This document shows, piece by piece, positions 13,311-44,826 of a stretch of DNA of 64,000 nt. Source of the stretch: Tetracentron sinense (taxonomy: Eukaryota; Streptophyta; Magnoliopsida; Trochodendrales; Trochodendraceae); assembly GCA_015143295.1 (NCBI GenBank), contig CM026568.1, forward strand, positions 14,018,607-14,082,606, in the 5' to 3' direction. The translations under genes and the position numbers were made by a program. Below the pieces are notes generated by a model. That model was not told the origin of the DNA. It ran no database searches and was given only the letters and a program-made list of their open reading frames with translations. How positions within the stretch are numbered: position 1 is the stretch's first letter; each line of letters starts with the position of its first letter.

Positions 13311-13921
13311 AATCTTGGATTTTTTTTGGCTGTCTAAGCTGGATTTTTTTTTGGCTGTCTAAGCTAGAATTTATGGCTTAAAAAAAAATATTTATAAAAC
13401 AAATTTATGTATAAGAAATAAGTATTAAAAAAATAGAAATAGTAGAGATAATTTTCTTAATAGTGCTGTTTCTAGCAAATTCTTAATGTTATATTTTTTT
13501 GGAAAACAATTGGATCAGTGGTTCTGCAGCAGAACGGCTGCAGAAGGAACATTAGGGGGATTTTAGGGCTAGGGGTTATGAGTTACCTACGTGGCACCTC
13601 TCATGTTTCTTCTGCGGCCCTCTTGCACTAGATCCCATTCATCTTATATAGCTCTGGATAGCTGGATGGATGATTTAGATATATGAGATGTGTGAAGCAA
13701 AAGGTTAAATATAAATCATTTTAAAATTCAATCTCTGATATTTCATGTGAGCAAATACAAAATAAACCATAAAAATCTAGGTGCAATATTTGACCCGACC
13801 CATCATGCTTTCACATATTCGGGTTGAGATTTTTGAGTCCGTGTATTGGGTCGGGTTTCTGACCCAAAAATATCTTAATGGTTTGATTAAACTCCAAAGT
13901 TTAAAAGTTATTTTGACTGCC
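13311..13921. repeat. Segmental-duplication block, copy A (left part)
   Basis: This stretch is collinear with 28911-29320 plus 37312-37600: both carry CTGTCTAAGCTGG, the CTAGAATTTATGGCTT stretch, GATGTGTGAAGCA, CATGTGAG and then CCCGACCCATCATGC. It shows the ancestral sequence without the MITE/Copia nest inserted in copy B. A 28-nt direct duplication of a TTTTTTGGCTGTCTAAGCT word lies at 13318-13375. Confidence 0.8.
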
Positions 13922-13939
13922 TAGCACTACAAAAATCAA

Positions 13940-14480
13940 GGTTTAATTTTAACGGTGATTCAAAACTGCCGTTATAAGACGAGAACCCGCCGTTACAGGA
14001 TATAACGGTGGTGGAGTAAACCGTCGTCGATTATCTTGTCGGGGAATCCTGTAGTGGCGAATATTAACGGCGGTTAAATCTAACCGTCGTTATACATAAA
14101 TATTTGACGGTGGTTTTCAACCGCCGTCGTTAACTTTTTAATATGATTATTAAAATGCTCTATTGCGTCATATATAACCGTCGTGACTTAACCGCCGTTA
14201 GTTATTCCATCTATGATGGTGGGTTCTACTGCCGTTACATAGTAAATATATAACGGCAATTTCTAAACCGCCGTTATATATATAATATTTCATGGCGGGT
14301 TTAAACCGTCTTCATTTATAATTTATTTAACGGCGTCTCATACCGTTGTTATAGAGATAATATATGCCGGCCGTTTATAAACCGTCATCATATGTCGAAT
14401 AAATATAACGGCGGTTACAAACTGCTGTCGTTAAGTTACAAATAGTAAAATTAATATTTTTTATAACAGTAGCTGGAACC
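13940..14480. repeat. Left sub-terminal repeats of the CACTA element
   Basis: More than ten copies of AACGGCGGTT / AACCGCCGTTA-like words lie in both orientations, spaced 20-60 nt. In CACTA elements such arrays bind the transposase accessory protein. The mirror array is at 25790-26130. Confidence 0.85.
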
Positions 14481-14906
14481 GCCACAACTAGTTTTAAATT
14501 TATTTTTTTTTGCCCGTATTATTTGTATATGTCAGCAATATAAAAATCAATAAACGCGTGTACAATTTTACACCAGTAAGCAATATATAATTCAAACTAA
14601 AAATATATATCTCATGTAATAAAAAAAATACATGCCCTAAGCCTGTAATAATAAAATAATATATACATGAACATAAAAAGTGCACATAGTAAAATGCGAA
14701 AAAAATCCTAAGCTAGTCGCCTAGCTCCTTCCTAGCGGTGCTCCAAAACCCGACAAGTGTGTGCTATCAGTTCCCTCCTGCAAAAAACAATAATATACAA
14801 TTTATTATTAGAATATTGAAATTATAAAATTTAAGAATGTAATAATTAATTAATATGTAAAGAAACAAACTCCTCTCAGAATATTAATAGTTTTCAGCAA
14901 TAGTTA

Positions 14907-16865
14907 GGCCTAAACCTACAAACCTACACCAAATCCAAATCGGGGGTCGGATTTTGATGTTGTTTATTCTAATGCGTGTATTTTGATCCAACCAAAGTGT
15001 GAGAATTCGTTTCGATGGAATCCGAGGTCGCTTGCCCAATTCGGGCATCGAGAGACCCAAAATCAAATTTTAAAAGTATCGTTTTGGCCTAAACCTACAA
15101 ACCCGCACCAAATCCAAACCGGGGGTCGGATTTTGATTCCGTTTCTTCTAACGCGTATATTTTGATCCAACCAAAGTATGGGAATTCATTTAGATGAAAT
15201 CCGAGGTCATTTGCCCGATTTGGGCACTGAGATGACCGAAATCCAAACTTTCAAGTATAATTTGACCTAAACCTACAAACCCGCACCAAATCCAAACCGT
15301 AAGTCGGATTTTGATACCGTTTCTTATAACATGGGTATTTCAACCCAACCAAAGTGTGAAAATTTATTTTGATGGAATCCGAGGTCGTTTGCCCGATTTT
15401 GGTACCGAGAGACCCGTAATCCAAACTTTGAATTATCGTTTGGCCTAAACCTATAAACTTGCACCAAATTCAAACCGGGGGTCGGATTTCGATGTTGTTT
15501 CTTCTAACGCATGTATTTCAATTCAAACAAAGTGTATGAATTCGTTTCGATGGAATCTGAGGTCATTTGCCCGATTTGGGCACCGAGAGGCCCGGAATTA
15601 AAACTTAGATGTATCGTTTCGTCCTAAACCTACAAACCCGCACCAAATCCAAACCAGGGGTCAGATTTCAATGTCGTTTCTTCTAACGCGTATATTTCGA
15701 CCCAACCAAAGTATGGGAATTCGATTCGATGGAATTCGAGGTCATTTGCCCGATTTGGGCATCGAGAGTGTCGAAATCCTAAACTTTGAAGTATCGTTTG
15801 GCCTAAACCTACAAACCCGCACTAAATCCAAACCGCAGGTCGGATTTTGAAGCCGTTTCTTCTAACGTGTGTATTTCGACCCAACCAAAGTGTGAGAATT
15901 CGTTTTGATGAAATCTGAGGTCATTTGCCCGATTTGGGCACCGAGAGGACCGAAATCCAAGCTTTAAAGTATCGTTTGACCTAAACCTACAAACTCGTAC
16001 CAAATCCAAACCGCGGGTCTGATTTCAATGTTGTTTCTTCTAACGCGTGTATTTCGACCCAACTAATGTGTTGGAATTCGTTTTGATGGAATCGGAAGTT
16101 GTTTGCCCGATTGGGCACCGAGAAGGTTGAATTCCAACTTCTTAAGTATACTCTGGCCTAAATTTACAACCTTCCACCAAATCTAACCGAGATTCGGATT
16201 TTGATGCCGTTTCTTCTAAGGCGTGTATTTCAATATATCCTAAATGTTGAAATTGGTTTCAATGGAATTCGAGGTCGTTTGCCTAACTTGGGCACCGAGA
16301 AGGCCGAATTCCAACTCCTTAAGTAAACTCTGTCCTAAACCTACAACCCTCCACCAAATCCTAATCGAGGCTCGAATTTCGATGTTGTTTCTTCTAACGT
16401 GTGTATTTCAATATATTGTAAGTGTTGGAATTGGTTTCGATGGAATCTGAGATTGTTTGCCCGATTTGGGAACCGAGAAGGCCGAATTCCAACTTCCTAA
16501 GTATACTCTTGCCTAAACCTACATCCTTCCACCAAATCCTAACCGGGGCTCGGATTTTGATGTCGTTTCTTCTAATGCGTGTATTTCAATATATCCTAAG
16601 TGTTGAAATTCATTTCGATGGAATCCGAGATCGTGTGCCTAATTTGAGCACCGAGAAGGCCGAATTCCAACTTCTTAAGTAGACTCTGCCCTAAACCTAC
16701 AACCTTCCATCAAATCCTAATTGGGGCTCGAATTTCGATGTCGTTTCTTCTAACATACGTATTTCAATATATCCTAAATTTTGCAATTCGTTTCGAGGGA
16801 ATCCGAGGTCATTTTCCCAATTTGGGCACCAAGAGGCCCGGAATCCATACTTCTTAAGTATCCTA
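14907..16865. repeat. 178-bp tandem repeat, 11 units
   Basis: Units start with a CCTAAACCTACAA word at 14907, 15086, 15264, 15442, 15621, 15800, 15978, 16155, 16332, 16510 and 16688, a spacing of 177-179 nt. Each contains CCAAATCCAAACCG, GTCGGATTTTGAT, CGTTTCTTCTAACGCGT, GATGGAATCCGAGGTC and TTTGGGCACCGAGA. The last four units form a sub-type (CTTAAGTATACTCT before the start word, ATATATCCTAA in the middle). Open frames across the array are repeat artefacts. The period equals that of many plant nucleosome-length satellites. Confidence 0.95.
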
Positions 16866-16929
16866 TTAGAATGGAGAAGTGACATAATTGAAGTCTATTA
16901 CCTATTAGAATGAAGAAGTTAAATAAAAT

Positions 16930-17460
16930 ATACCATCCCTGTCTCAGAGAACCAATAATCGACGAGACCATGTCACTGGCTCACTGGCACATCTGAGGGG
17001 CATCTGGCATAGAACCCCGCTGGTCCAAGCTCTGGATCCATGTGCCTCAATTTCAACTTCGCCTTCCAGTCCCTCCATTTATGCTTGAGGGGAAGCCAAG
17101 ACATAATGCTCCTGGGTAGGCAGGAGCCGAAACTTTTCCTGGATCACGTTGTCAATTGATTAATATTTCAACTAATATAGCAAACACTACATAATCAAAA
17201 ACTAATAATAAAAGATATGCATATTTTTGATGTCTTACCTAGACTAAAAGTCATGCATGTTGTTTGTCTTCGACATCGATGTTCTTCCAACCGGCATTGA
17301 AACGAAACATGTACAGGTCCCGTGCAAGAGTACCCAAAAACTGACCCAGCAGCTTGCCACCCTGCCCTACAGGTTAGGCAAGATCATCGACCTCAATATC
17401 CTTCTTCTCCCTAGGTTGTAAACCGTACATATTCAGACATCAGGTTTGACCTCAGGCCCT
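16930..17460 (-). pseudogene. CACTA second-ORF-like region (accessory transposase)
   Basis: Minus-strand exonic-looking pieces encode SWLPLKHKWRDWKAKLKL followed by MDPELGPAGFYARCPSDVP (about 16985-17130), and a further piece near 17240-17400 that includes GKLLGQF and FRFNAGW. The position downstream of TNP2 and the basic, tryptophan-rich character fit the Ptta/En/Spm-type second protein of CACTA elements. I could not define exons, and the match is by general character rather than a strict motif. Confidence 0.45.
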
Positions 17461-17542
17461 CCTAATAGGCTCGAGCGTAGGTGCAGAGGCCCCAGCATGT
17501 GATGGTGACCCGGGAGGTCCTATAGGATCCATCTAAAAATAA

Positions 17543-18118
17543 CATGCAAATAAACAACTCATTAAAGGAAATTTCATACTTAGAGAGTTTAAATACATAA
17601 AAGTATCTGGATTTTGTCATTAACATGCAAATAGAGAGTTTAAACACATAAAAGTTTCTAGATTTTTCCATTAACATACAAATAAATAACCCATAGCTGA
17701 TATTTCATACAGAGAGTTTAAACACATAAAAGTATTTGGATTTCGTCATTAAGATGCAAATAAACAACACATAGCAAATATTTCATACTTAGAGAGTTTA
17801 AACATAAAAGTTTCTGGAGTTCACAATTAACATGGAAATAAACAAGTCATAGCAGATATTTCATACTTAGGGAGTTTAAATACGTAAAAGTATCTGAATT
17901 TCGCCATTAACATGCAAATAAACAACCCATAGCAGATATTTCATACTTAGAGAGTTTAAACACATAAAAGTTTATGGATTTCACCATTAACATGCAAATA
18001 AACAATCCCTAGCAGATATGTCATACTTAGAGAATTTAAATACATAAAAGTTTATGGATTTCACCATTAACTTGCAAATAAAATACCCATAGTAGATATT
18101 TCATACTTAGAGATTTAA
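17543..18118. repeat. 80-bp tandem repeat, about 8 units
   Basis: Units begin CATGCAAATAAACAA at 17543, 17624, 17675, 17753, 17831, 17911, 17991 and 18071. The spacing is mostly 78-81 nt, and the second unit is shortened to about 51 nt. Each has ATTTCATACTTAGAGAGTTT and CATAAAAGT. The array lies between the TNP2 C-terminal coding region and the second ORF and may be a repeated intron or spacer segment. Confidence 0.9.
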
Positions 18119-18189
18119 AAATAAAATGAAATTTTACTTGTAGATTGGATTAAACTTACAATGTTTTTGTTTGTATACGTTGGTACATA

Positions 18190-21100
18190 TTAGTCGTTTC
18201 TGTCTGTTTCATCGTTATAATCCGATTCAACTTCGTCCTCACTAGATTCGGTTGAAGGAGCTTGGTGGAGTTGCACTTGAGGGGGCGCATCAACAGTTGC
18301 TCCGGTAATCCCTAATCTCACCCAACTAACACATCTGTCATCATCATGTTCAGTGCCATCTAAATGTTGGTCATCGAATGGCTCGTTTTCTCTGAATGCA
18401 TTATCATCCACAGTAGATTCTTCATTCATTTAAAGAAGTCTCTGGGTTTAGTCTTGATAACAACATGCCAATCTGGGTCAGAAAGATCTTCTACGTAAAA
18501 TACTTGCTCTGCCTGAGATGCCATAACCTATGGTTCATGAGACACAGCGTGTGTCGGGAGTAGGCATGTGAAGCTCACAAGCATAAACCCATACGCATCG
18601 GTATTTATTTCTCTACCCTAGGACATTACATCAATCCAGTCGCACTTAAACAATACAAATTTTAGGCTTTCTAAATACGTCAATTGGACAACGTTGGTTA
18701 AGCGGCCATAATAGGTTATATCTCCTTCAATGAGAATCCTATCCCTAGAAGATGCATAACAAGAAGTCGCTGCAGTGAACGTAACACCACTATTTTGATT
18801 TTTGCGTTTGCGCTCTCTATCCTTACTACAAAACCTATATCTGTTGATGATGTAGACTTTAAAACTTTGTGTGACTTTTTGTGGAGTATATGAAAGCCAT
18901 ATAATCTCATCAGACATCGAACTACGTAATGCTCGCGACCTTTGAACCTATTTGAACGCCAAAGGCATATGACTTACATAATAAGATTGATTCATTACTC
19001 AAAACTTCATGTATGTGTTGTACAAATATAAAAGTTAAGTGCATATGACTTACATAACCCCTAAACCATTTAACAAACTGATCGCTGTGCTTTTTTGGAA
19101 TTTTTGGGGGGCGATCTAAGTTTAGGATTGGTCATCTTCAGTACATTCATGTGTTAACTTCAAGGAACGAATCGATATGCATTACTCAAAGTCAGATTTA
19201 CTGTTTAAGTAAAAATGAAAATTAAATGAAAGACAATTAGCAAAAAAGTCATGATAATATTTGTCTTACTCTCGGTATGTTGTGAGTTTCTCGAAGTTGA
19301 ACAACACATAACGATGTGTCTGCTGTCATTCTAATTCACTTAGAGTGAATGATTATGCACCCCCTATCACACTTTCATCGTTATTCCTAGCCGGCCGATT
19401 CAATCTCGATTAAAAATTATTTAGGTACCTTGAGTAGAAGGTCAAGCATTCTTCTACCAAGTACCCTTCTACAATGCAACCCCCTGGTCGAGCTCGGTTG
19501 CGGACATACAATTTCAGTGTAAACAAGTACCTATAGGAATTAAATTTTGGTAAAACAATGAGACAATCATATAACCACAAGAAGTTTAAACAATTGATAC
19601 ATTATAATTGAAGTCATACCTTTTGATGGGATACATCTACCGAATTATACAAGTCCACCTAGCCTTGCCTCTATTGCCAAATGTATAGGCAAGTGCACCA
19701 TAACATCAAAGAATGCTAATGGAAAATTTCTCTCTAAATGACAAAGCGTAAGTGCAATTTTCTCCTCTAACCATCTCAATTCCTCGACCTGATAGACTTT
19801 GGAACATAAACCAGAAAGACGTCGCTCAATTCAATTAGCAAGGAAGTTACATTCTTCGGCAATGTCTTCCTCACTGCCAATGGTAGAAATTATTGAATTA
19901 CTAAATGAGAGTCGTGGCTCTTTAGTCCATAAATTTTACTCTATTTGATATTGACATGTCTTGCAATATTAGACGAGTAACCATCTGGAACCTTCACACT
20001 TTTCAAAACTTTACAAAACAACTCTTTCTCATTCTTGTCCATCGAAAAATAAGTCGGGAGCAGATACACTTTATTTGTGTCAAGCTGGAACTGAGGGTGA
20101 AGTGCTGGTCTTACGCCCATATCAACCAATTCAAGTTGAGCTTTTAAGCTATCCTTCGATTTTCCTTTTAAACCTAACAAAGTTTCAAGCACATTGTCGC
20201 ATACATTCTTCTTGATATGCATTACATCAAGGTTGTGCCTCAACAATTGTGCTCTCAATATGGCAACTCAAAGAATATACTCATCTTTTTCCAGTTATAC
20301 AACATGATCTCCTGGCTAGCCTACTTGGTCGTTTTCGCCCTGTCTGCTTCCCAAGGGAGAAAGCAATCCCCTCCAACTGACATAACACATCGAACCCAGA
20401 CACTGTAGTTAGAGCAGAGCTGAACTCTAGAGTGTCATCAAAAGAGTTTTTGTACCTCTAAAACTTGTGATTCGCCTTTAAGAAACGGCGGTGCCTCATT
20501 TAACATTGCTTCCTGCTATTAGACAAGTGTCGATTGCAAGTACCCTTGTAGCATGACGGGCATGCCAACTTTCCTTTTGTGCTTTAACCAGATAACATAG
20601 CATACCCTGGGAAGTCGCTAATGGTCCAGAACAATGCCGCACACATTACAAATGTCTCCTTTTTCGACGCATCATAAGTTGGAAAGCCATTCTCCCACAA
20701 GTCCTTCAACTCCTCGACTAGAGGCATCATGTAGACATCAATATCATTTCAAGGCCCAGAGGGATCGGGGATAAGCAAGGACAGAATGAAGTTCAACTGC
20801 TTCATGCACATCCACGGTAGTAAGTTGTATGGGATAAGAACCACATGCCATGTGCTGTAAGAAATACTCATCATACTAAATGGATTGAAGTCGTCACTCG
20901 CCAACCCAAGTCTCACATTTCAAGCATCTGAAGCAAAAAAATGGCACTTGTTGTCCAAATTTTCCTAGGCCGGTGAGTCTGCAAGATGCCTTAACCTCCT
21001 ATCCTTAATTCGACCCTCATCATGCCATCTCATTTAAGAAGTAATCTTGGACAACATGAACAATCTTTGTAACCTGGGTTTCAACGGAAAGTGACAGAAA

Positions 21101-21864
21101 ATCTTCGCCGGAGTCTTCTTTTTCTTGCCTCCCAACTGATCATCCCCTGTCTTCCATCTTGATTCACCACATATGTCACATGCTTGCTTGTTCATAGTGT
21201 CTTTCCAGTTAAGTATGCAATCATTAGGGCAAATATCGATTTTTTCATATTTAAGCCCCAAGTCAGACATCACTTTTTTTATCTGAAAGTAAGTATCCGA
21301 TAGTGTTGATCCCTCGAGGAGTACCTCCCTCAACAACTTAAGCAACAAGGTGAATGATCTGTTGCTCCATCTACTAAGACACTTAATGTGATATAATTTT
21401 ACAATGAAAGACAACTTCGTATGATTCAGACATCCTAGATACAAAGTCTGTCCCGCATCCCTTACCAATTGAAAAAATTTATTAGCCTCAGGACTAGGAT
21501 CCTGACTACTGATGCTGGTTTCATCTTGATTTGGGACCCCAAATAAATCATGCACCAGATCTTCTATCTCATTTTGTCTGTTGTGCATGTCAGGATTTTG
21601 AGACACTTGGCCAACCGGTGTGTGTTGTAATATGTTTTTCCCGTGATAAAACCAAATTTTATAATTCAAGTCGAATCCATAATAGATCATATGGTTATAC
21701 GCTGTACCTCTCTGTTGATAAACCAGATTGTTGCATTTGGGACATGGACACTTTATACTGCCATTGTTATCAGTCGCTCCACGAGCTAATGCAAACTCTA
21801 TAAACCCCTTCATCCCTTCTATGTATTCCTTTGACACCCTATGTAACCCAAAACATGCATTCAT
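18190..21864 (-). pseudogene. TNP2: Decayed TNP2-type CACTA transposase gene
   Basis: TNP2 proteins cut and join CACTA termini. Reading from 21864 leftward there is a transposase-associated N-terminal domain with CPCPKCNN (21864-21600). The TNP2 catalytic region follows (about 21240-20500): KYEKIDICPNDCILNW, then CDICGESRW, then VRLGLASDDFNPF, YSTWHVVLIPYNLLPWMC and NDIDVY, then YDASKKETF. Next comes LRHNLDVMHIKKNVCDN (20258-19941) and a DUF4218-like segment with WLEEKIALTLCHLERNFP and FFDVMVHLPIHLA (about 19800-19640). A DUF4216-like piece has YYGRLTNVVQLTYLE (18917-18618), and an acidic tail lies at 18429-18190. The frame is broken by several stops and shifts; two visible stops fall just before VRLGLAS and before NDIDVY, the first at a position where CGA would become TGA. 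Some breaks may be unannotated introns. Confidence 0.85.
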
Positions 21865-22846
21865 AATTGCTTAGATACTAACATTTTATCATTCAGTGTT
21901 TCATCAAAACTTATGAAAAATAGTACCTTGACATCCCAATCCAACTCCTATCTATAAGGAATGAGATTAGATTTCTATGTCCTTTAATCTTCATTAGTTA
22001 TTCTGAGAAATAACAAACGATGATCACATTAGTCAATTGTAATAAAATAGCTGTCAAAATGACTTCACCATCTATACAATATGTATGTATGCATGCATGC
22101 TTCCTATCGTTTAGCCTAAACTTCTCTTCTAATGAGGTGTTCCTATCCATTCAGGAATACATTATCCCCAAAAGTCAATAGCTTGTACTTTGTTTCATTT
22201 CAAGGAAATTTTGACAGGATTTCCCTATGGTTCTCCAAGTACAAGACTTAAACTAGGGGCAAGAGAAACGACTGCCAAATTTTTTCTCAATCTGAACAAA
22301 CCATGATCAACTGACTATACTGGAAATTATGCATTCTCAAACTATCCAATTGGACAATTCAAGAATCATGTATAGACAAATAAACTTTATCACAAACAAG
22401 ACCAAAAAGTTGTTAATCTACATTTAGCTCCACAAGATAATTAATGCCATAGTTTACAACTAATCCGTCCAAATAAGTGATACAAGAAATGCACTTGTCA
22501 TGCAATGATTATTGAATGAGAAATCTAATGTTCAATTCACGCATGAGTATGAACCTATGAACTTCAATTCTCATTTAGTCACTGATAATGTACTAAATAG
22601 GGTAATCTGTACATTATTTTGCTCCAACATTGATATAAAATAGAGATCATAAGGAAATATCATATAACCACCCAAACAGTTAACATAGACCATAGGGTTC
22701 CGTCATGCATTATACAAAGTGTAGCAGAACGGGAACAAGGTTGTTAACAATTAAGTAAGCACAAGATATAATTAAACAAGAGATCTTACTAAGCATATAT
22801 ATCATAGAAAAAATGGAAGATTAAGAAATTCCATTACTTGGGCAAG
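21865..22846. other. CACTA leader region, no coding recognised
   Basis: This AT-rich sequence lies upstream of the TNP2 start. I see no tandem structure and no exon, so it is likely the 5' untranslated or intronic part of the transposase gene. Confidence 0.4.
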
Positions 22847-24830
22847 GTTAGATGGATAAATCCAAGGGGTTAGTGACTCTTAACCACTGTTAGTGGGTGT
22901 TAAAAGGAACATGTGTCGGCTTGTAGAGCCTTTTAATTGTGGTTAAGTATAAATAGACTAAATTTTTTTTTCTACAAACCAAGGTTAGATGGATGAATCC
23001 TAGAGGTGAGTGAATCTTAACCACAAGTAGCAACTGTTAAAGGGGACACGTGGCGGCTTGTAGAGCCTCCTTTAATTGTGGTTAAAGCATAATCAACCTA
23101 AGTTCTTTTTTCTAAAACCAAGGTTAGATGGATGAATCCTAGGGATGAGTGAATCTTAACCACAATTAGTGGGTGTTAAAAGGGACGTGTGGCGGCTTGT
23201 AGAGCCCCTTTAATTGTGGTTAAGCATAATTATTTTTTGGGTTTTTGCATATCAGCTGCTAGGTTTAGCCTAGTTTGCAAAAACACTGTTATGGAAAACA
23301 TATTTGCAAATTAACTCATAATTTTTCAACAATTTGACAAAGGACCTCAATCCTTACTTTCGTTGGGCATTTGGTTATAACCTGTTAATAAAATGACTGC
23401 TATGCCCTTCAGATATTCATAACCTCACAAAGCTCCTCTAACTACCCTTAAAGTTACACTATGATAATTAACAAGTTTTAACCCTATGATTAATTTTTTT
23501 AATAATGAATAATTAAAATTAGATGCTTTAACCCTAAGGGTTAGTGAATCTTAACCATAGTTAAAGGGTGTTAAAAGTTGACACCCCTTTGACTGCCCTT
23601 GAACAATGGTTAACGTTTTGACCCTTGTGATTAATTTTTAAATTTTCTTAACTAAAAACTAAGGTTACTATAGTTAAAGGGACTTAAAAGGGTCACTCCT
23701 TTAGTTGTCTTTGAACTATGGTTAACAAATTTTAACCCTACAACTAATTTTAAAAACAAATCTAAAAATTAAGGATTAGATGCTTTAACACTAAGTGTTA
23801 GTGAATCTTAACCATATCTAAAGGGTGTTAAAAGATGACACCCCTTTAACTATCCTTGAACTATGGTTAACATTTTAACCCTTGTGATTAATTTTATTTT
23901 ATTTAAAAAAAACCAAGGTTGGATGCTTCAACCTTAAGGGTTAGTGAATCTTAACTATTGTTAAATGTACACTCTTTTAACTGTCATTAAACTATGGTTA
24001 ACAAGTTTTAAACCTCATGGTTATTTTTTTTCTAAAAACCAAGGTAAGATGCTTTAATCCAAAGGGTTAGTGAATCTTAACCATAGTTAAAGGGAGTTAA
24101 AAGAGGACACTCCTTTAACTGCCCTTGAACTATGGTTAATAAGTTTTAACCCTTGTTGTTAATTTTTTTATAAAACTAAAGTTAAATTCTTTTAACCTTA
24201 AGGGTTAGTATATGTTAACCGCAGTTAAAAAAAGTTAAATGAAGACATGTGTTACAAGTGTACTAAGTCTATTAAATGTCACAAGGGTATTATAGTCACT
24301 CTTTCAACAATTTTGAATGAATTTAAGAAGTGGAAGAATGAGGTTATTTGGCTAACGGTTGTATAATGCTGAGTTAATTTGCAAAACTGTTATTCATAAC
24401 AGTGTATTTGCAAACTAGGCCTAACCTAGCAGCTGATATGCAAAAACCCCTTTTTTGTTTTCCTAAAAACCAAGGTTAGATGGATCCTAGGGGTAAGTGA
24501 ATCTTAACCACAATTAGTGGTTGTTAAAGGGGACATATGGCAGCTTGTAGAGCTCCCTTTGATTGTGGTTAAGCATAATAAACCTAAGTTTTTTTTTTCT
24601 AAAAACCAAGTTTAGATGGATCCTAGGGGTAAGTGAATCTTAACCACAATTAGTGGGTGTTAAAGGGGACACATGGCAGCTTGTAGAGCTCCCTTTGATT
24701 GTGGTTAAGCATAATAAACCTAATTTTTTTTTTTCTAAAAACCAAGGTTATAAGATGGATTAATCCTATGGCTGAGTGAATCTTAACCACAATTAGTGGG
24801 TGTTAAAAGGGACGCGTGAATCTGACAAAG
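22847..24830. repeat. 137-bp tandem repeat, six units, interrupted
   Basis: GATGGAT markers at 22851, 22988, 23127, 24479, 24615 and 24754 give periods of 136-139 nt, except one gap of 1352 nt where a TIR element (23240-24450) is inserted in the third unit. Each unit has AATCTTAACCACAATTAG, GGGTGTTAAA, GGCGGCTTGTAGAGC and TTGTGGTTAAGCATAA. Confidence 0.9.
23240..24450. mobile_element. Nested 1.2 kb TIR element inside the CACTA
   Basis: The left end GGTTTTTGCATATCAGCTGC and the inverted right end share long terminal inverted repeats of about 80 nt, including CTAGTTTGCAAA and TTTGCAAATTAACTCA. TTTTTTG occurs on both flanks (23233-23239 and 24451-24457), consistent with a 7-bp or longer duplication. 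The interior has its own repeats with period about 120 nt (GGGTTAGTGAATCTTAACC). No transposase ORF is present. Confidence 0.8.
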
Positions 24831-25289
24831 AAAAAATATCATATCTAAAATATCTTTTCATGCAAACAAAAATCACCAAATTTACAAAATATCGATCATA
24901 TCTAAAATCACCAAATATATCTAATAGAGACATAATAAACCTAAGTTTTTAGCTTTCTAAATCACCAAATTTATCCAAAAAAAAATAAGAAAATCATATA
25001 TTTTCATCCTAATAAATCCCTATAATTACCAATTAAAAAAAATATAAATCCCTATAATTGCATAGACAAAACCGCCTAAAATATCTATAACTCAAAATGA
25101 CCAATCATCTGTTTTCTCTATATTAGTCCTTGAAAACCAACATACATACATAACATCATCAAAATTGACGGAATACAAATTTAGAATTCTAAGGGATTAC
25201 ACAAGAAGTTAAGAACAAAAAATTTACCTAAGTTAATTAACTTAATTAAATTAAGGAAATTAAAAAAATTACCTAGAGTTACAGAGAGA

Positions 25290-25760: not shown

Positions 25761-25789
25761 AAAGAGGAGAAACTATCGGGGCCTAATTA

Positions 25790-34561: not shown

Positions 34562-35403
34562 TGTTGGACATGATGCCCTAAAAGTCATTTAGATTGTAAG
34601 ATTGTTATTGATTAGATTAACAAAGACATCTTCTTTATCTATTCTAAATTCATTATGGGTAATTGACCATGATCATGAGATGATCTATACGATATGAGAT
34701 ATCGATCAAGGTCCCTAAGATATATTATAGGAAAGCTATGTGATAGGTATTGGACTATCACAGGCAGATATAGCTTTCTAGTTCCTTATACCTTATAGAG
34801 TCACAGCTGTAGGTAAAGCTGGGCACTTCACTTATATGGCTGCCACAATGCTAAGATGTTCTCAATGGTTGAGATGTAGTTTTATCTCAAACTATTGTAG
34901 TGGAGACTACACATCAGCATATGAGTGCTTAAATGTACACTGACTGATTGCATGCAATGAGAGACCTCTTGCACAAACATACTATCAAATAGTTGGTATC
35001 TCATTCACATTTAACAGTTTTGATGATCCTTAGATCTGATGAGTTCATTTCTAACTGAGCAGTAATCTGACTGTTTTGATTGCACCTAAGTACTCTCTAC
35101 CTAAGGGACTATAATACAGTGACAGTTGGATAATCAGAAAGTTGTTGAAGTCATGATGAATTTCAAATAAGAAATTCATGCTCATTAAATTGAGAGATTA
35201 TCCAAGTTCTGGGTAAGACAATGGATTAAGCTTAAATCCTGCGCATGTGATTTTGAAATCAAATAAGTTTGAAATATATTTTTAATAAAATATATTATAC
35301 TTAACAAAAGTTTTTCTCAAAATATTTTACATGAGAAATAGTTTCTCATGGCTTAATCAAATGTATTGGAAATCCGGATGATGTACAATGGGTTATGAGT
35401 TAG

Positions 35404-35445
<42 letters not shown>

Positions 35446-36809
35446 TCTTGAAGGCCCATTAGGGATAATGTTATTGGAATGATCAATTGAATTGAAAAGT
35501 TCATATGGTGGGATCCTTTATTGGTTTATGTTCCTACATTGGGATTCAATTGCAACATGGATATCTCACGTCACTTGCAATTCCGATGTTATTCCTATTA
35601 AAAGGTCAATGGGATAATATCGGGTAAGCCAGGATTAGAATGTCGCAGAGCAATCTATGGAGATGCTCATAAAAGAAATACAAGCTTAAATAATAGATTA
35701 AATGTTAATCTATAATTAATGGATTAAATGTTAATCTTTAATAAATAGATTAAATGTTAATCTATGGTTTATATTAAATGTTAATCTAAATTAAAGGATA
35801 ATAATTATTATTATTTAATTAACCAAATATAAGAGGATATGAATTTGACCCATATCCATAAAAGCCCATATAAGATGGACCTTAATGGTGGGCCCAAGCC
35901 CATGGGATAATCTCCCCAAAGTGGGCACCCACTTCTAATTCCCTAATTTTATGGGATTTTTGGTTAGTATATAATTATTAATTAATTAGTCATTATCTAA
36001 TGAGATTAGATACCTTACTTGGAAGACAAGAAACAAAGAGATAAGGATTATCCCTATTAACTTGATGCTCAAGACTCTCCTCTCCCTCATGCCCACTCCT
36101 AGCTCACGCCCACCCCTTGAGGGGTTTCTAATTTGATTAGAATCCCTAGATTCAAGGGATTTAGTTACATCCCATTAATTAGGAAATCTTTTTGGGAAAA
36201 TAAATCATAAATTAGAAGTTTGTTATAACTAATTAGTTATGGATAAACTTGGAGTTTAATTATTGATAAGAGTTATCATTATTTAGTAACTCTTAGGGAT
36301 AACTATCATTATTTGATAATGATAAGGATAATGATCAAGATGTGGATAAGATCCACATCTATAAATACCCAGCACCCAAAACCGTGGGGTACAAGATTAA
36401 TTCAAAAAAATCTCTACAATTTTTGTGAGCCAAGGGAGAGTCCGTCAAGGAATTTCGTGAGCTTCTAGGGAGAGCTCAAAAGGTGTTTTGAAATCTAAGG
36501 TTTTGAACTTTAAGGATTTTGTGAGATAGAAAATCTATTTCAAAATCTCTTTCATCTTTTTTTCTTAAAAGGCCAAGAATAGATTTAAAAGCTTCGCGGG
36601 GATAGCGAAGAGCGAGGATCGAATTTTGAGTATTTTTTCGAGAAATCTCTACAAAGAGTTCTGACAATTCATCATGTTTTGTGCTTCACCGGTGAACATT
36701 ATTCACCGAGGTAATTATCTAAATATATAGTTAATATTATTTGTTTTCTATGGTGTAAAGATCTTTGAGATCTAGTATTCCGCATATTTTTTTATCTGGA
36801 TTCACTTCA
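34562..36809 (+). mobile_element. Solo LTR (2.25 kb), TSD GTTCG
   Basis: It begins TGTTGGACATGATG and ends TTCACTTCA, flanked by GTTCG at 34557-34561 and 36810-36814. It is inserted in the right LTR of the Copia fossil. A TATAAATACC promoter box lies at about 36360 and an (AT)n tract at about 35407-35441. No internal coding domain is present, so it is read as a solo LTR left by recombination. The superfamily cannot be fixed from an LTR alone; Copia is likely. Confidence 0.85.
35690..35790. repeat. Short minisatellite (TTAAATGTTAATCT)
   Basis: Five or so imperfect copies of a GATTAAATGTTAATCTA word lie inside the solo LTR. Confidence 0.7.
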
Positions 36810-37270
36810 GTTCGTGCGATAGTGGATCGTGGTGTATTATTGTACGAACTGAAGTGAAGACTACGGGGACGTAGGCGGGAGTGTCGAACCTCTAAAACAA
36901 TCATTTGTGTTTGCTCTCTCTATCTCTCATCATTTCTTTAAAATTGCATTATTGTAGAATTGCTAGTTTCCTTCCACTGTTAATTAGTTTAATTTGAAAT
37001 TTCGTAAAAAGGGAATATGAAGAATTTTAAATTTACCAAGACCCTATTCACCCCCCTGCCCCTCTAAGGTCCAATAATTGGGCAATAGTAATAGTGAGTG
37101 GTTTTGGTGGTGGTGTGGCATTTCATGTTTTCTGTTTTTGTTTTTTATTTTCAAAAACAGAGGTAACAGAAACTTTCTGTTACCTTGATTTTCAAAAATC
37201 TTGTTACTAATTCTTAAAAATAGAAACATGTTTACCGAATATGTTTTGAGTAAAAAAATTCTAAAATTTT

Positions 37271-37518
37271 GTTTTTAAAAATAGAAAACGGAAGTGCAAC
37301 CAAACGGGCCCTAAGGTGCCAATATTCGACCCGACCCATCATGCTTTCACATATTCAGGTTGAGGTTTTCATGTCCATGGATTTAGTTGGTTTTGTTTTT
37401 AAAAATAGAAAACGGAAGTGCAACCAAACGGGCCCTAAGGTGCCAATATTTTACCCGACCCATCATGCTTTCACATATTCAGGTTGAGGTTTTCGTGTCC
37501 ATGGATTTAGTTGGTTTT
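37271..37518. repeat. 124-bp direct tandem duplication
   Basis: Copies at 37271-37394 and 37395-37518 are nearly identical. Each carries the MITE right end (AAACGGGCCCTAAGGTGCC) plus host sequence (CCCGACCCATCATGC). The duplication therefore postdates the MITE insertion. Only a few mismatches separate the copies. Confidence 0.92.
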
Positions 37519-38457
37519 CGACCCAACAAGTAATTATTCCTAGTTAGGTTATATATATATATATATAATTTTATTAGAAATTTTAGGTTTAAATGTTATT
37601 ATGACAGGCTAGGTTCTGGTAGAGGGGTCTGTTACTGGGTTGGTTTCTTGCTTTGCCAACCCATTTTGTGAACAATCCGGGTTTGTGTTGGTGGTGTGGT
37701 TTCCCAATCCAACAAACCCGTCTATAAGCACATGTCAGGGCACATGGAGTGGCACCCATTTAAGGGATCTGAGACCCTCTTTCCAACGACTCTAATCAAA
37801 GAGTCTACAGATCATGTGTATGAAATCACCTATTCTTGAAAATGTACCATTTATACTTGATGTGATCCTCGTACCCAATCGTTTCTCATCTGTACAATAC
37901 CTTCTTCCTCTTTTGGTATCTTTTTATTCGGATACAGATACAGTGCATGGCATATTAGGAAATATTATACCATGAAAATAAAAATTTAAGGGTGGTGTTA
38001 AGTGCACCCCAAATTTTGATGGATAAACACCATAAGTAAAAACAATCATAGTTTAGGTACTCAAAGGACTATAGTACCCAAATCACTCGGTAACATTGCA
38101 GAAAAGCAGGAGAAATCATACAAAAGCACTAAAGAGATAAATTTGTTGTTGCGACCCCATTCTTTTTCTATCTGGGTGGCCTGGGGTTGCTAAGGTTTGG
38201 TAGAAAAAAACGGGAAGATGGAGATGAAAATAAAGAAGGGTATTATTGTCATTTATAATGTTTTTTCACTTATGGTGTTTATTCTGAAAATTATGGGGTC
38301 CGGGTAACACCACCCTTATTTAAAATTATTTATGAGATATTATCATGAGATCCTGTGTATCTCCTAGATATTACATTACATTACTATTTATCTAACACAA
38401 TATTAAGGCAATATTCACAGAAGATTCCCATTTGATGAATTTTTACCTCTTTACTTC
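37519..38457. repeat. Segmental-duplication block, copy B (EXPA-5 upstream)
   Basis: It carries GGCTAGGTTCTGGTAGAGG near 37606, the empty counterpart of the CACTA insertion site upstream of EXPA-4. From 37832 it carries a diverged copy of the EXPA-4 promoter-proximal sequence. An extra stretch (about 37975-38330), containing GTGGTGTTAAGTGCACCCC and a rough inverted partner GGGTAACACCACCC, is absent from copy A and may be another small insertion. Confidence 0.75.
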
Positions 38458-38465
38458 TATAAATA
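38458..38465 (+). promoter_or_regulatory. TATA box of EXPA-5
   Basis: TATAAATA followed by CCACATTAC lies 47 nt before the ATG at 38505. Confidence 0.75.
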
Positions 38466-38504
38466 CCACATTACACGAGTTTGGTTACAGACTAAGAGAT
38501 AAAA

Positions 38505-39368
38505 ATGGTTAGGTATGGTAACACAGTGGTTCTCATGTCCTCCATGGCACTCTTCTTTGTCATCGCATCAAGCGATATTGGATGGGATGTAGCAACTGCG
38601 ACATTTTCTGGTGACCAGGGGGCTGGAACTACGCGTAAGTTCTTGATTCTGCGTCTTCTTGTTTAACTTATTTAATATAATCTTCCATAACTATCTTGTA
38701 GTACATGTTCTTGTGTTAAGTACTATCCAAAATCTGTAATGTTCTATGTAGCTTGTGGCTATGGAGACCTAGCCATGCCAGACTACGGTATAGAGACGAC
38801 GGGGCTAAGCTCGGCCCTCTTCAACAACGGCCTAGGATGTGGTGCATGCTATCTGGTTATGTGCTACAATTCCACATTGTGTCAACCAGGCTCAGTCCTT
38901 GTTACTGCTACCGATTTTTGCGCACCAAATCCCTCCAAGCCTCCTGAAGCCGGAGGCTGGTGCAATCCCCCTAACAAGCATTTTGACTTAAATAAACCTA
39001 TGTTCCTTAAAATTGCAGTACAAGGAGCTGGGATTGTCCCGGTGCAATATCGCCGTGCTAGTTGTCAGACGAATGGTGGCATTAAGTTTGAGATTAGTGG
39101 TAATCCTGGTACTCCTTATGTGATGAATGTACTAGTTTACAACGTCAGAGGTGCCGGGGATGTTCAGCAAGTTGCGATTAAGGGATCGCAAAGCAATTGG
39201 GTACAAATGTCGCAAAGCTCGGGACAAAACTGGCAGACGGGAACTCAGCTGCAAGGGCAAAGCTTATCATTCCAAGTGACTACTAGTGATGGTAAAATGT
39301 TGCTGTCGGATTCTATTACACCAGCTAATTGGCATTTTGGACAGACTTTTGAGGGGAACCAATATTAG
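38505..39368 (+). CDS. EXPA: Divergent alpha-expansin, two exons (EXPA-5)
   Basis: Exon 1 is 38505-38634 and exon 2 is 38752-39368, with a 117-nt phase-1 intron, giving 248 residues. It is the tandem duplicate of EXPA-4 but visibly more divergent. TATFYG has become TATFSG. The Gly-Ala before CGYG is lost because the acceptor lies 6 nt further in. ATNFCPPD is ATDFCAPN, and RNWGQNW is QSSGQNW, removing a conserved tryptophan of the second domain. A two-residue GT gain sits in GNPGTPYVM. HFD, CGAC, WCNPP and the signal peptide remain. The frame is fully open, so it may be neofunctionalised, under relaxed constraint, or early in decay; the sequence cannot decide. Confidence 0.85.
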
Positions 39369-39401
39369 TCACAGATGGAGTCTAAGATTTCATTGTTATA
39401 T

Positions 39402-39576
39402 TGAATAATTCGAATAAGGGGTTAGGATTGTATTTTTGTTCTCTGTTTTATGAAAATATATATATGTTGAAGGCAAGGTTTGAAATTTCGAATAATTCGA
39501 ATAAGGGTTAGGATTGTATTTTTGTTCTCTGTTTTCTCAAAATATATAAAAGTAGAAGGCAAGGTTTGAAATTTCG
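39402..39576. repeat. 88-bp tandem duplication in the EXPA-5 3' flank
   Basis: ATTCGAATAAGG through AAGGTTTGAAATTTCG is present twice, at about 39408-39490 and 39493-39576. The unit joins host 3' UTR sequence to the first bases of the inserted fold-back element, so it arose after that insertion. Confidence 0.85.
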
Positions 39577-42029
39577 GTTTCGAACCCCCCCCCATCGAAA
39601 TGGATGAAATTTCGGAAGAGACGATTTTGGACGAAACTTCATTGATTTCGGATGAAATTTTGATTTTACGATATATCGGGATTTCGGCCGAAATTTGATG
39701 AATTTTTTTTTCCAGTGATATTTTTTGTATTTTTATATATATTTTTGTATATAGTATTAAATATATTTTTATATATTTAAAATACATAATTTACTACTAT
39801 ATTATACTTTATAAACTATAGTTTATAAAGTATACTATTAATATTATATTATTACACTTTATAAAGAGTATATAAACTATAGTTTATAACTATATTATAT
39901 ATTCATATATTATACATGAAATGAAGTATACTATGAATAGTATATTATTATACTTTATAACGAATATATAAACTATATATGAATAGTATACTAGTAAGTA
40001 TACTTTGTATTTTAAATATATATATATATATATATATATTTAGAAAATAATATGCTCGGAATATTTTGAGAATATTATGTTCGGATCCCTGAAAAATATA
40101 TAAATTAAGTATTTTAAATAAAGCATAAATTATTTTAAATTACGTATAAATATAGTAATTTACTAGTAACTATATTACTATATTTAATATTCATATACTA
40201 GTAAGTATATTACTATATTTTTCATTGATTTTTGTTATAATATAGTAATGTACTAGTAAATTATATGTAGAGACCCGAATCTTTTCATGCTTTTTATGCA
40301 AGTATTAGGGGTATTATAGTCCTTGTGATGTTTTAATGCTTGTGTAACTATATCTAATTGGTGTGATGTGATCTAGGCTTATTCCAAGATTAGATGAGTT
40401 TTTCATCATTTTTGTATAAATTAAGCTATTATGGATGAAAATATGGTTTAATAATGTGAATGAAATGTATTGAGGATGGGAAATACTTTGGAGGATGGGA
40501 TGAATTTATGGATGTGGAATGTATTTGGGTTGCATGGATGGATTATGGTGTGGTAAAATGTTGGAAATGGGAAAGGGCAATGTATTCATAAATTACGCAC
40601 CCAAGGTGTTTGTTGAAATGCTTGAGAGGTTAAATACTAATATGGTACTATGAAATTGTTGGAAATTGATGATGAATTATGTTAAGAATCATGATAAGGT
40701 ATTTATATGTGAATGTTTGTTAGGTTATTCTTAATTATTTGCATGGTAATTGATATTCAAGAAGGTAAAAATTTAAAGGAAAATCTTTCAAACCGGGAAT
40801 TCTCTAACTATATGGTATGAGACAGCATAGTGGAGTTTTCATGGTGGGAGATCGGAATCCAAATGATTACCAACTCGAATGTTAATTGCGACACCTATGC
40901 ACAAACGCACGTGTATGTTAAGATAAGAGTCTCACAAATCACACATGTGGACCACAAGCATAAGCATTACATACGCCTAATGTTCTGAATAAGCCCAATG
41001 AGGGATCTGAATAAGTGCATGTTCCGAATAAGCTGCTCAAGACTCATAAGCATTGCATACGCCTGTCTTCTGAATAAGCCCAATGAGGGATTTGAATAAG
41101 TGTATAGTTTGAATAAGTGCATAAGCATCTCACAAGCACGTGGTCTCATAAGCATAAGCATCTCATAGGTATGTTGTCTCCTAAGTCTAAGGTTCTCACA
41201 AGTACACAAGTCAAGGTGATGATATGATGTATATGAGCACATGTTCTTCCGCACTCTGATTATGTTATTATGCTATTGGATATAGTTCTAACTAAGTGTA
41301 GGTATACTATCTTATTGGTTGGATTTTATAAATACCGAGTACTTTTGTACTCAGCCAGACTTTTGTCTTGGCAAGTTTAGAGCAGGAGCATACGGCGGAG
41401 CCGTGGATTGAATAGGCTTACGTTGAAGAAGGAGATGAAGGTGAGCCTTTCGAGGAGGGAGCCAGGGGTTTTAATGGTTATCCCTATTAGTTTAAGTTTT
41501 GTTTTGGTTAAGAGATTTGTAATAGACTTTTAAATGATGTTGCTCATTAGATTACTTTATAGTTGGGTATTAGACTATTTGTTTATTGTGGGTGGTTATT
41601 TTGAGTATAGACTTGAGCAGGATGACTTGGTTTTATATATATCGGAATTTTATTATCCTCATTTTTGGAGACTCGTGTTAGTATGCCTTGTATGTCATGG
41701 ATTTAAGCAGGTTAAGGAAATGTGACGATTCCAAAGTCCTATTTTAGCCTTGTAAGATTTTGGTGTCGTTACATCATGTATTTTAAATTTTAAATATATA
41801 AAATATATTTATTACTATAGAAAAAATATATATAGAAAAATCATCAAATTTCGGTCGAAATTTTGAAATTTTGGAATATTTTGACGAAATTTTGGATCAG
41901 ATTTCGGAATAATATTTTATTATTAAATGAGATTTCGGTGAGATGTCACCTGAAATTCCTAAATTTCAGAAAATTTCGTTTCGAGGTGGGCTTCCGAAAT
42001 CGACGAAAATTTCGAAATTTTAAACCTTG
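39474..42029. mobile_element. Fold-back TIR element, TSD GTTGAAGG
   Basis: It begins CAAGGTTTGAAATTTCG and ends with the inverted partner (CGAAATTTTAAACCTTG). It is flanked by GTTGAAGG at 39466-39473 and 42030-42037, exactly duplicated. The terminal inverted repeats run roughly 180 nt, with many GAAATTTCGG words. The core is AT-rich and hosts a Gypsy-like solo LTR. The paralogous empty site is near 27738-27760 downstream of EXPA-4. No transposase is present; the 8-bp duplication suggests hAT mobilisation. Confidence 0.85.
40266..41773 (+). mobile_element. Probable Gypsy-type solo LTR
   Basis: It begins TGTAGAGACCCGAATC and ends TGTCGTTACA, end sequences commonly seen in plant Gypsy LTRs. It contains TATAAATACCGAG followed by TACTTTTGTACTCAGCC at about 41326-41355. 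It is about 1.5 kb with no coding domain. The flanking 5-bp words do not match, so the exact ends or history are uncertain. Open frames inside, such as that at 40967-41254, are repeat-driven (ATAAGCAT and GAATAAG words). Confidence 0.6.
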
Positions 42030-42281
42030 GTTGAAGGTGCAATGGATATTTTTGTCATCATTTTCTAGATTTTCATCTCTCTCTCCATAGTTTTCTATCT
42101 TCAGATTATTCCTATAGCTTCACTTTTCTTTTAAACTCACCTTGAAGACATGTGTTACCATTAAGAGAAAGACACGTGTTTTGTATCAACACTCTATCCA
42201 CTCACTCATAAAGAGAGTGTATTGGAAAAGAGAGTACTATTGCTAGCATTATCCTACCAGCAATGGCTTTACATGGCCAAC

Positions 42282-42503
42282 TAAGTGTTAAAATTTAATT
42301 GGACATCTAGATCTTTTTTAAATAGAGGTTGTATCTCTAAAGAAAAAAGTTGTTCATGTCTCCTTATTACTTTATAGGTAAAACCTCTACTTTAAAAAAA
42401 AAAATAGACATTCAATTAAGCTTTAACTTAACATTCTAAATCTTAAACAAGCTCAATTTTCAAATAAACTCTACCTATTTTGTTTAGAGTTACCAAATGT
42501 TCT
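42282..42503. mobile_element. Small MITE with AAGTG flanks
   Basis: The paralogous site at about 27865-27885 reads TTCAAGTGATTATG; here AAGTG occurs on both sides of about 220 extra bases. The insert has roughly inverted ends (AACTCTAC / GTAGAG-like words) and no ORF. Confidence 0.5.
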
Positions 42504-42816
42504 CTAAGTGGTTATGAAATTTTAAAAAGTTGTAGATTAAGAAAGAGTAATTGCTCAATTAATCTCTTACTTGGCAGATTTTATAAATGAGATTTCTGTA
42601 AAGATATGATTTATTGAATAATTCTTAGATGATTACAATGACCTCCATTAGTACCTCAAGATAGAAACATAAAATCATATTCCTAATAAAATCTATTTTA
42701 TCTTGATTGATGCTAATCTATACAGTGATGAGATATACTTGAATGATGTAGTATATACTCATTCACCATATTACAATACTCCTAATAATTTTTTCATCAT
42801 CATAAAAAACAAGGAT

Positions 42817-44330
42817 CACTGCAAAAATATAGGCCTTTAGCGGCAATCTTTTAATGGCGTTTAGCAAAAAATGCCTTGAAAGGCAACCAACCCTAGCGTT
42901 TCTATAGAAATGTCGTAGATTACATGGCAGAAACATGTGTTGCAGCGTTTTATAAAGAAATGCCATGGTTGGTGGACTCTATCACGACGCTCTTGAAAAA
43001 AGTATCATAGAAGACATGGCGGGAAGCCGACTTCAACGGCACTTATCTGAAGTCGCCGTGGATAGAGGCTCGCGCCATGCCAACCACAGCATCACTTAAG
43101 GGCCTTTCACGGCGCTTTTTAAAAGCACCGTGAAAGGCCCCGTATTTGGAGGCTTAGGGCCCAAGACTTCCCCTCTTATCTTTCCCTCCACTTTTTCTCT
43201 CTCCTCCTCCTACTCTCGGCTCCGGCTCCTCTGCTCCATGCTCCCAAATCCGGTCACTTGCTCCGGCTCCCTTGCTCCGTGCTCCCAGCTCTAGCCACCT
43301 GCTTCGGCTCCCCTACTCCATGCTCCCAGCTCCTGCCACCTTCTTTGGCTCCTCCCTACTCCTGCTCCTACTCCCTACTCGTGCTCTCCACCTCCTAGAC
43401 CAGCACCTTCGGTGAACTGCTCACCTCCTCTCTTTTCTCAGGTAATCTCTCGTAGTCTCTCTCTCTAACTAACCTCTTCAACCTCAATGTCGGTCTTCAA
43501 GTTTTCTTTGCTTATTTTTAATGAAATCTGCAGAAGCCGAAGCCAAGAGCGGAAAGCCTACCATTCCATACTCCCTGCAATCAAGACACAAAGCACCATT
43601 CACCGAGGATTTTGAGGCCTCCATCTAGAATTCTCCCTCTTTTCTTCCGAAACCTAGGGTTCTCATTTATTTTTGGTATTTCTAAGATTCTTCCTTTTAT
43701 CATAGAGGTGCCCTGGAATTTTAAGTTCTGGTCTGAATTTCAGTGATATTCTTCACCGGTAGTGGATTGAGGTGAGCACCAACCTCTTTATTCCACAATT
43801 TCCCTTCTCCGTTTGTTTGTGATTCTAATCTTTCGTATTTTCCTTGTTGGTGCTCTGTAGATCTAGAACTTGCTCCCATAAGGAAGGAAGGTTTTTTTGT
43901 TAGATATTGCTCAATTCAGTTGGGGTTCTGATCATTTGGTGTACCTGCAATTTTTCCTCACAGGTATGTTTAACAGATAACCCCCGTAAATCTTTGTTTA
44001 TCCTCCAATTCTAGGCCCCCAAAGCAGCCTTCAACCAAAAATTAAATAAAAAATTTATGTTTTTTGGGATCCGAGCTCAAACAATGCCCAACTCGTGAAT
44101 GTTGTATATGCCGTTATATGTGGAGTTATTACAGCATTTGCCAAACGCCATAAAAGACACAACGTATAACGGCGTTATTCAAACACGGTGAGAATAAATG
44201 TCGTGTTTACCTTCCCCGACGTGACTAATAACGGCGTTTGGTATGAAACGCCATTGTTACCAATAACGGCGTTTTTTTGTCTTTTAACGGTGGTGTTGAA
44301 ACGCCATTAAAAGACTTAAATTTTGTTGTG
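42817..44330. mobile_element. Non-autonomous CACTA-like element, TSD GAT
   Basis: It begins CACTGCAAAAATATAGG and ends AAATTTTGTTGTG, flanked by GAT at 42814-42816 and 44331-44333. Sub-terminal regions carry AACGGCGTTT-like words in both orientations (42840-43130 and 44110-44310). The middle has a pyrimidine-rich stretch (43160-43460) with repeated CGGCTCC / TGCTCCCAGCTC words, possibly captured host 5' UTR sequence. No transposase frame is present. The empty site is preserved at about 28024 (AACAAGGATTACC). Confidence 0.85.
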
Positions 44331-44488
44331 GATCATCCATATTCTGAGAGTCAGAAGAGGCCCAACAGCCCCACGAAAAATGTGGCCACTAAATCATGCA
44401 CAAGATTTTATTCTAAAACATGTACTCTCTTGTTGCACTTGCAGTATGCACTAATACTCGTTGGCAAACACTCCTTGTTTATCTTCAA
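44331..44488. repeat. Segmental-duplication block, copy B (continued)
   Basis: This matches 28033-28115, including ATTCTGAGAGTCAGAAGAG and the ATCATGCACAAGA / ATCATACACAGGA words. Confidence 0.65.
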
Positions 44489-44826
44489 AAACTATTTCCT
44501 CATAAATCTGCTCAAATTCCAAGTAGCTGGTGCAATATTATAGATTGCAACAGCTTACCATCAGTAGTAGTCGCTTGGAATGGGCTAAGCATTGTCTCTA
44601 GCGATGCCAGGAAAAAATTTTCTGGCTCTACAAATCAGTGGACATGTGGCACTAAAAAGGGGGGAGATATCAAGTGGGGAGAAGTCAAAATCATGAGGAG
44701 AAAATGAAATGACTTTTCCCCTTTTTAGCGTCACATGTTCACTGTTTTGTGTATGACCAGAAATGTTTTCCTGGGATTGCCAGAGACAATTCTGAGCCCT
44801 TTGAATGACAAGTCTTGGGCTAGTAA
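44489..44826 (-). pseudogene. Expansin C-terminal relic split by a MITE
   Basis: On the minus strand the sequence corresponds to the last 40 or so residues of an EXPA-1-like exon 2. The plus-strand words AGCTGGTGCAATATTAT, TTACCATCAGTAGTAGTCGC and, beyond the MITE, GACAAGTCTTGGGCTAGTAA align with the 3' end of EXPA-1 (1095-1205). The MITE at 44582-44798 interrupts the TTGGAATGACAA stretch. No other part of the gene is present. It shows that expansin sequence once lay in minus orientation beyond EXPA-5. Confidence 0.85.
44582..44798. mobile_element. MITE inside the expansin relic, 8-bp TSD
   Basis: The ends GGGCTAAGCATTGTCTCTAG and, inverted, GGGCTCAGAATTGTCTCTGG are relatives of the 10920-11194 element. 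The flanks CTTGGAAT (44574-44581) and CTTTGAAT (44799-44806) duplicate a known expansin coding word, so the insertion point is certain. Confidence 0.88.

Follow-up and report, generated by a model that had tools for sequence, protein, structure and literature searches.

The 64,000-nt window analysed here (the whole stretch, positions 14018607-14082606 of C18 in the Tetracentron sinense assembly) carries an array of five expansin genes, and the neighbourhoods of two of them, EXPA-4 and EXPA-5, are a direct tandem duplicate arranged head to tail. We put the probability at about 0.92 that a tandem duplication, followed by independent insertions of transposable elements into the two copies, explains their present structure. 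A stretch of about 2.3-2.5 kb (its length in today's alignment without elements) that carried a single alpha-expansin gene was duplicated in tandem in this plant, as the collinear noncoding DNA shows. In this scenario, unrelated transposable elements would then have entered each copy independently. The EXPA-4 copy would have received a 12-kb CACTA element and a miniature inverted-repeat transposable element (MITE). The EXPA-5 copy would have received a Tourist/PIF-like MITE, later a Copia element within it and then a TG...CA insert within the Copia, as well as a hAT-like fold-back element, a second CACTA element and four smaller elements. Each copy retains the uninterrupted target of the other copy's clean insertions.

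The two neighbourhoods are collinear beyond their exons

A BLAST comparison of the whole window with itself returned 10 collinear blocks, which paired 13362-28079 with 29008-44388 in the same order and the same orientation. One additional match between the two regions came from a local tandem duplication in the EXPA-5 copy. We designated the EXPA-4 copy unit A (about 13299-28117, plus strand) and the EXPA-5 copy unit B (about 28902-44408, plus strand). Unit A is broken by one CACTA element (CACTA-1) and half a MITE, and unit B by seven inserts and two nested ones; with the elements excised, the units are collinear. The right edge of the collinearity, near 28117/44408, rests on a weak short match.

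After excision of the elements, BLAST joined 13619-13870 to 29137-37529 over the MITE/Copia nest of unit B, and 13899-26185 to 37587-37636 over CACTA-1. With all identified inserts excised, a single 1577-column alignment was obtained between 26584-28079 and 38413-44388; it bridged the fold-back element, a small MITE, the second CACTA element (CACTA-2) and two inserts absent from the list of an earlier, sequence-only reading of this DNA. In this comparison, 1258 of the 1574 noncoding bases of unit A were covered by unit B, in order. Under identical settings, none of the noncoding bases of unit A were covered by any of 10 stretches from elsewhere in the window (the stretch starting at 4001 gave one match, on none of these bases), 50 block-shuffles of unit B gave no plus-strand match, and unit A had no minus-strand match to unit B. 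Because noncoding coverage was high while the controls gave zero, the collinearity is real and extends beyond the exons. This noncoding collinearity in a single orientation identified the units as a tandem segmental duplicate. The sequence-only reading had claimed that the two neighbourhoods are collinear once insertions are removed, and the self-comparison, the excision alignments and the controls bore it out, with collinearity seen outside the exons when elements were masked.

Dispersed repeats lie close to both ends of the inter-unit space (28118-28901), and the duplication breakpoint is therefore not readable. Recombination between dispersed repeats was considered, as 28137-28202 resembles 11707-11772, and was rejected: this segment recurs on other contigs, and apart from it a BLAST search of the inter-unit space within the window matched neither outer flank convincingly. 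The sequence immediately to the left of unit B (28786-28900) is dispersed too; it is about 98-115 bp long, shows 86-95% identity for the copies that were scored, and is possibly an LTR (long terminal repeat) fragment.

Each unit preserves the uninterrupted targets of insertions in the other

Five filled/empty pairs had been named in the sequence-only reading, near 37606 (a CACTA), 13768 (the MITE/Copia nest), 27750 (the fold-back element), 27870 (a small MITE) and 28024 (a 1.5-kb CACTA). All five exist. At three of them (CACTA-1, CACTA-2 and the fold-back element, whose label we sharpened to hAT-like), an exact target duplication brackets the element in one unit and the target stands single in the other; at the nest the target site duplication (TSD) agreed at just two of three bases, and at the small MITE it was undecidable.

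CACTA-1 (13925-26150, 12.2 kb, with degenerate transposase-region genes on the minus strand) interrupts unit A. It is flanked by exact TAG duplications at 13922-13924 and 26151-26153, and unit B holds a single TAG on the plus strand at 37610-37612. The 3-bp TSD and the termini, CACTACAAAA...TTTTGTAGTG, placed it among CACTA (EnSpm) elements. Among 12 fetched loci (own copy included), nine matched its 5' end from base 1 and three from the second or third base. Pfam identified Transpos_assoc (PF13963, 1.6e-18) on the minus strand; the check for a TNP2-type transposase gave a DUF4216 match below the cut-off, and the open reading frame (ORF) at 19944-20267 had no Pfam match. CACTA-1 also holds tandem arrays at 14900-16861 (178-bp units), 17632-18126 (80 bp) and 22843-24813 (about 136-139 bp).

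CACTA-2 (42817-44330, plus strand, 1.5 kb) interrupts unit B between exact GAT duplications at 42814-42816 and 44331-44333, and unit A has a single GAT at 28024-28026 (plus strand). Its CACTA-like termini (CACTG...TTGTG) and 3-bp TSD are those of the same superfamily. It begins at the same first base in six of eight loci (own included), and four relatives start with CACTACAAAA.

The fold-back element (39560-42029, plus strand, unit B) has a terminal inverted repeat (TIR), CAAGGTTTGAAATTTCG. Its left junction is tandemly repeated. The TSD, GTTGAAGG, agrees at 8/8 bases between the outer of these junction copies (39466-39473) and the right side (42030-42037); the inner one at 39552-39559 reads GTAGAAGG and matches at 7/8. 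The empty site in unit A (27743-27754, plus strand) reads TTGAATGAGCAA, versus GTTGAAGGTGCAA in unit B. The 8-bp TSD and short TIR suggest that the element is hAT-like. Seven relatives were found: L040 has its own exact 8-bp TSD, L038, read at both ends, has none, and the other five were not readable at both ends. Two ORFs of at least 90 aa overlap the element (39422-39790 and 40967-41272). A tandem duplication of about 87 bp (39403-39576, plus strand) spans the host flank and the left end of the element.

Unit B also carries a Tourist/PIF-like MITE that holds the Copia (29319-37309, plus strand), with TTA at its left border and CTA at its right; unit A has CTA at the empty site (13777-13779, plus strand). 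The MITE has GGAGCC.../...GGGCC as TIR. Among 12 loci (own copy included), the relatives L025, L029 and L032 have TAA or TTA flanks, a reading based on loci in the same orientation. The 3' end of the MITE is repeated up to 37433, within a 124-bp tandem duplication (37267-37518, plus strand) that spans this end and the host flank.

The Copia lies at 29610-37087 (plus strand) between exact GTAAT duplications (29605-29609 and 37088-37092). It comprises a 5' LTR (29610-31071), a gag ORF (31462-32391), an integrase remnant and a 3' LTR from about 33503 whose 5' end is lost. Pfam matches to a copia-type gag (Retrotran_gag_2, 5.9e-14) and to Pol_BBD (3.1e-17) confirmed the earlier label. Upstream of the 3' LTR, the remnant contains DDYSRYTW, which we take to be an integrase motif; it runs straight into the 3' LTR without the first part of that LTR, and no reverse transcriptase was found between the two. 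The gag, the integrase motif upstream of the 3' LTR, the 5-bp TSD and the TG...CA LTRs (the 3' LTR now ends in TA) placed the element in Ty1/copia. Within its 3' LTR, a 2248-bp TG...CA insert (34562-36809, plus strand) is flanked by GTTCG at 34557-34561 and 36810-36814. No terminal repeat was found inside these 2248 bp, and a solo LTR is the likeliest identity of the insert. The nest therefore has three layers, with the LTR insert lodged in the Copia and the Copia in the MITE.

Seven tandem-array rows in the window scored at least 300; five lie inside CACTA-1, and two (37267-37518 and 39403-39576) span an element/host junction. We considered the latter as a sign of aberrant transposition and rejected it: given how many junctions the small amount of host sequence contains, a rough hand estimate makes two out of two unsurprising.

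The fifth named site belongs to a small Tourist-like palindromic MITE in unit B (42285-42503, plus strand), of a family of about 281 bp with both ends seen in 8 of 10 loci (own counted among the 10). It has CTAA on both sides. Unit A carries 17 extra bases at this site, so the pair is suggestive but not a clean filled and empty site, and the TSD is not provable because an arm is lost.

At least four private insertions add to the earlier list, one in unit A and three in unit B. In unit A, half of a palindromic MITE occupies 26182-26416 (plus strand). Its family measures 373-397 bp in five fetched relatives and, judging from these and from unit B, we infer that it has lost the left arm together with about 200 bp of flank. 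Unit B has a MITE with GGGTGGTGTTA terminal repeats (about 37989-38316, plus strand) and two short dispersed repeats on the plus strand, one at about 42116-42256 with a possible imperfect TSD (ATTATTCCTA/ATTATCCTA) and one at 42597-42790.

The duplication most likely preceded the insertions

The self-comparison found no identified element of one unit that matched the other unit. An insertion that predated the duplication would be expected in both units, and the insertions thus appear younger than the duplication. The ends of the elements coincide with the termini of their other genomic copies.

Divergence estimates agreed with this order. Synonymous divergence (Ks) between EXPA-4 and EXPA-5 in exon 2 was 0.252 +/- 0.050; the nine other pairs among the five array genes gave 0.94-3.3, with the higher values near saturation. 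The LTR-LTR distance (K) of the Copia, after trimming of non-aligning ends, was 0.139 +/- 0.011, or 0.135 with slightly different ends. Both values are below the inter-unit noncoding distance (0.176 with the intron excluded, 0.208 with the intron included) and also below the exon-2 Ks. The order of LTR and inter-unit distances was contradicted by 37 of 2000 bootstraps without the intron and by 0 of 2000 with it. In rice, the intergenic rate is about twice the synonymous rate, as cited in the available part of one account (PMC1560396); such a ratio would merely widen the gap between the duplication and the Copia insertion.

Taken together, the absence of shared elements, the Ks and the LTR and inter-unit distances make the following order the most likely: the duplication, the nest MITE, the Copia and finally the insertion into the Copia's LTR. 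Every other element can be placed after the duplication, though not relative to the rest. The earlier statement that duplication came first and insertions second was therefore supported by the target duplications, the lack of shared elements and the LTR clock.

The same divergences bear on whether the two units are divergent haplotypes set side by side by the assembler. The assembly (1.16 Gb) is in 1479 contigs, some small contigs resemble second copies of chromosome stretches, and C1240 and C23 give an equal expansin score. Against this, synonymous divergence is 0.25 and noncoding divergence 0.18-0.21, which would be far above usual allelic divergence, and many decayed insertions also distinguish the units. 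We consider a haplotype artefact extremely improbable.

Several observations weigh against a tandem duplication followed by independent insertions. For 316 of the 1574 noncoding bases of unit A there is no alignment to unit B. The nest TSD matches at two of three bases only (TTA versus CTA), the left arm of the small MITE is about 70 bp short through loss, the A-side MITE (26182-26416) has lost an arm, and the MITE at 37989-38316 is without an alignable empty site in unit A. Without the fast intron, the clock comparison is modest, as seen in the 37 of 2000 opposing bootstraps; it sets LTRs against partly conserved flank sequence, and the untrimmed LTR distance, unaligned ends included, is 0.151. 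The evidence is also lopsided: CACTA-1 is the sole site with a clean TSD that is filled in A and empty in B, the other clean sites being filled in B. Just past the empty TAG of this very element, unit B is 8 bp shorter than unit A (TAGGCAAAGGGGTTCTGG in A versus TAGGTTCTGG in B), after which the common flank resumes. The difference could be an unrelated small deletion or an excision scar; it slightly lowers our confidence and slightly raises the odds of excision.

An excision history would have some elements predate the duplication and disappear from one copy, by excision or by deletion between target duplications. CACTA, hAT and PIF elements can excise, the 8-bp length difference adjoins the CACTA-1 empty site, and the small MITE and the A-side MITE, each with an incomplete arm, are evidence that element ends suffer deletions at this locus. 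However, such a history needs every identified element to be lost from exactly one copy and none to be retained in both, and the empty sites hold one TAG or GAT, not two. The Copia, which as a retrotransposon does not excise, lies inside the MITE, and its LTRs diverge less than the units. We therefore regard loss from one copy as very unlikely and prefer duplication followed by independent insertion.

EXPA-5 has changed faster than EXPA-4

EXPA-4 (26687-27600, plus strand; exons 26687-26819 and 26987-27600) and EXPA-5 (38505-39368, plus strand; exons 38505-38634 and 38752-39368) each have an intact frame of 248 aa, with splice sites assigned by eye. DPBB_1 and Expansin_C were found together with the HFD motif, which we take to be the mark of alpha-expansins, and KHFDL is kept in both genes. 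In a tree of the five array genes and two relatives from C10 and C23, EXPA-4 and EXPA-5 were joined with 100% ultrafast bootstrap; two deeper splits of this seven-sequence tree were weak (46 and 32).

In exon 2, comparison with five outgroups in turn, themselves not mutually independent, gave EXPA-5 25-27 private amino-acid changes and EXPA-4 5-7 (chi-square 11.65-15.12). Third-position synonymous changes numbered 2-6 in EXPA-5 and 4-11 in EXPA-4, without an overall synonymous excess in EXPA-5. Among alignment columns uniform in the five other sequences (gaps counted), 30 differ in EXPA-5 and 12 in EXPA-4, some of them in both. The change of NWGQ to SSGQ is an example from EXPA-5. Ka/Ks for the pair was 0.60 (0.152/0.252). 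These results showed that EXPA-5 has gathered about four times the private amino-acid changes of EXPA-4 since the duplication, with both genes still open, and suggest that this fast-evolving protein is under relaxed constraint or in a changed role.

The nest of about 8 kb ends about 1.2 kb upstream of EXPA-5, and the 2.5-kb fold-back element lies about 190 bp past its stop codon. The element-richer copy is the one with the faster protein change, although a single pair cannot establish causation. That insertions beside EXPA-5 altered its expression after the duplication, with later divergence of the protein towards a new role, is in our view a rather doubtful extension.

EXPA-1, EXPA-2 and EXPA-3 (1082-12681, minus strand) have expansin domains, and their exons match those of EXPA-4/5. 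By hand estimate from coordinates, EXPA-3 and EXPA-4 would have stood head to head about 1.3 kb apart before CACTA-1 and the A-side MITE arrived. Beyond unit B, 46006-61836 is a large block of diverged direct repeats, with a period of about 2.42-2.44 kb over 49906-59166; aligned pieces of its end segments (46006-49904 and 58307-61836) are 82-86% identical, and four ORFs tested in the block had no Pfam match.

Comparison with known systems

With paralogous empty sites in a single window, the direction of insertion can be read directly for several transposon families together, and insertion order is tied to a duplication of measurable age. Such sites could aid relative-age calibration of CACTA, PIF and hAT families, which have no LTR clock. 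The locus also offers a duplicate pair in which uneven gene evolution can be set beside element load, and leaves the general view of plant genome evolution unchanged.

In related empty sites (RESites), an uninterrupted homologue of the target shows an insertion and its direction. Here, unlike in that approach, the empty site sits in a tandem paralogue, and the locus is its own control. Our literature search found no paper linking RESites with paralogous copies, and nothing is claimed beyond that search; nor did it find, as judged by title, a paper on expansin duplicates.

The maize P1-wr / p1-p2 cluster offers a close likeness. As far as the available portion of that account goes, tandem duplicates there contain nested retrotransposons ordered by nesting, TSDs and LTR dates, and a Mu-like element is found in p1 alleles and not in p2 (PMC2686159). 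At both loci, tandem duplicates were later interrupted by nested insertions that can be dated, and one paralogue carries an element that the other lacks; the dated insertions described for maize are LTR retrotransposons, whereas here most inserts are DNA transposons, and empty sites are readable in both directions. The accessible sections on nested LTR retrotransposons in orthologous grass regions likewise obtain insertion order from nesting and LTR divergence (PMC1560396), an approach that is standard. The comparison there is across species and homoeologous regions, whereas here it is between adjacent tandem copies. The locus is a tidy further example of a known process, richer in DNA transposons, and no new kind of event.

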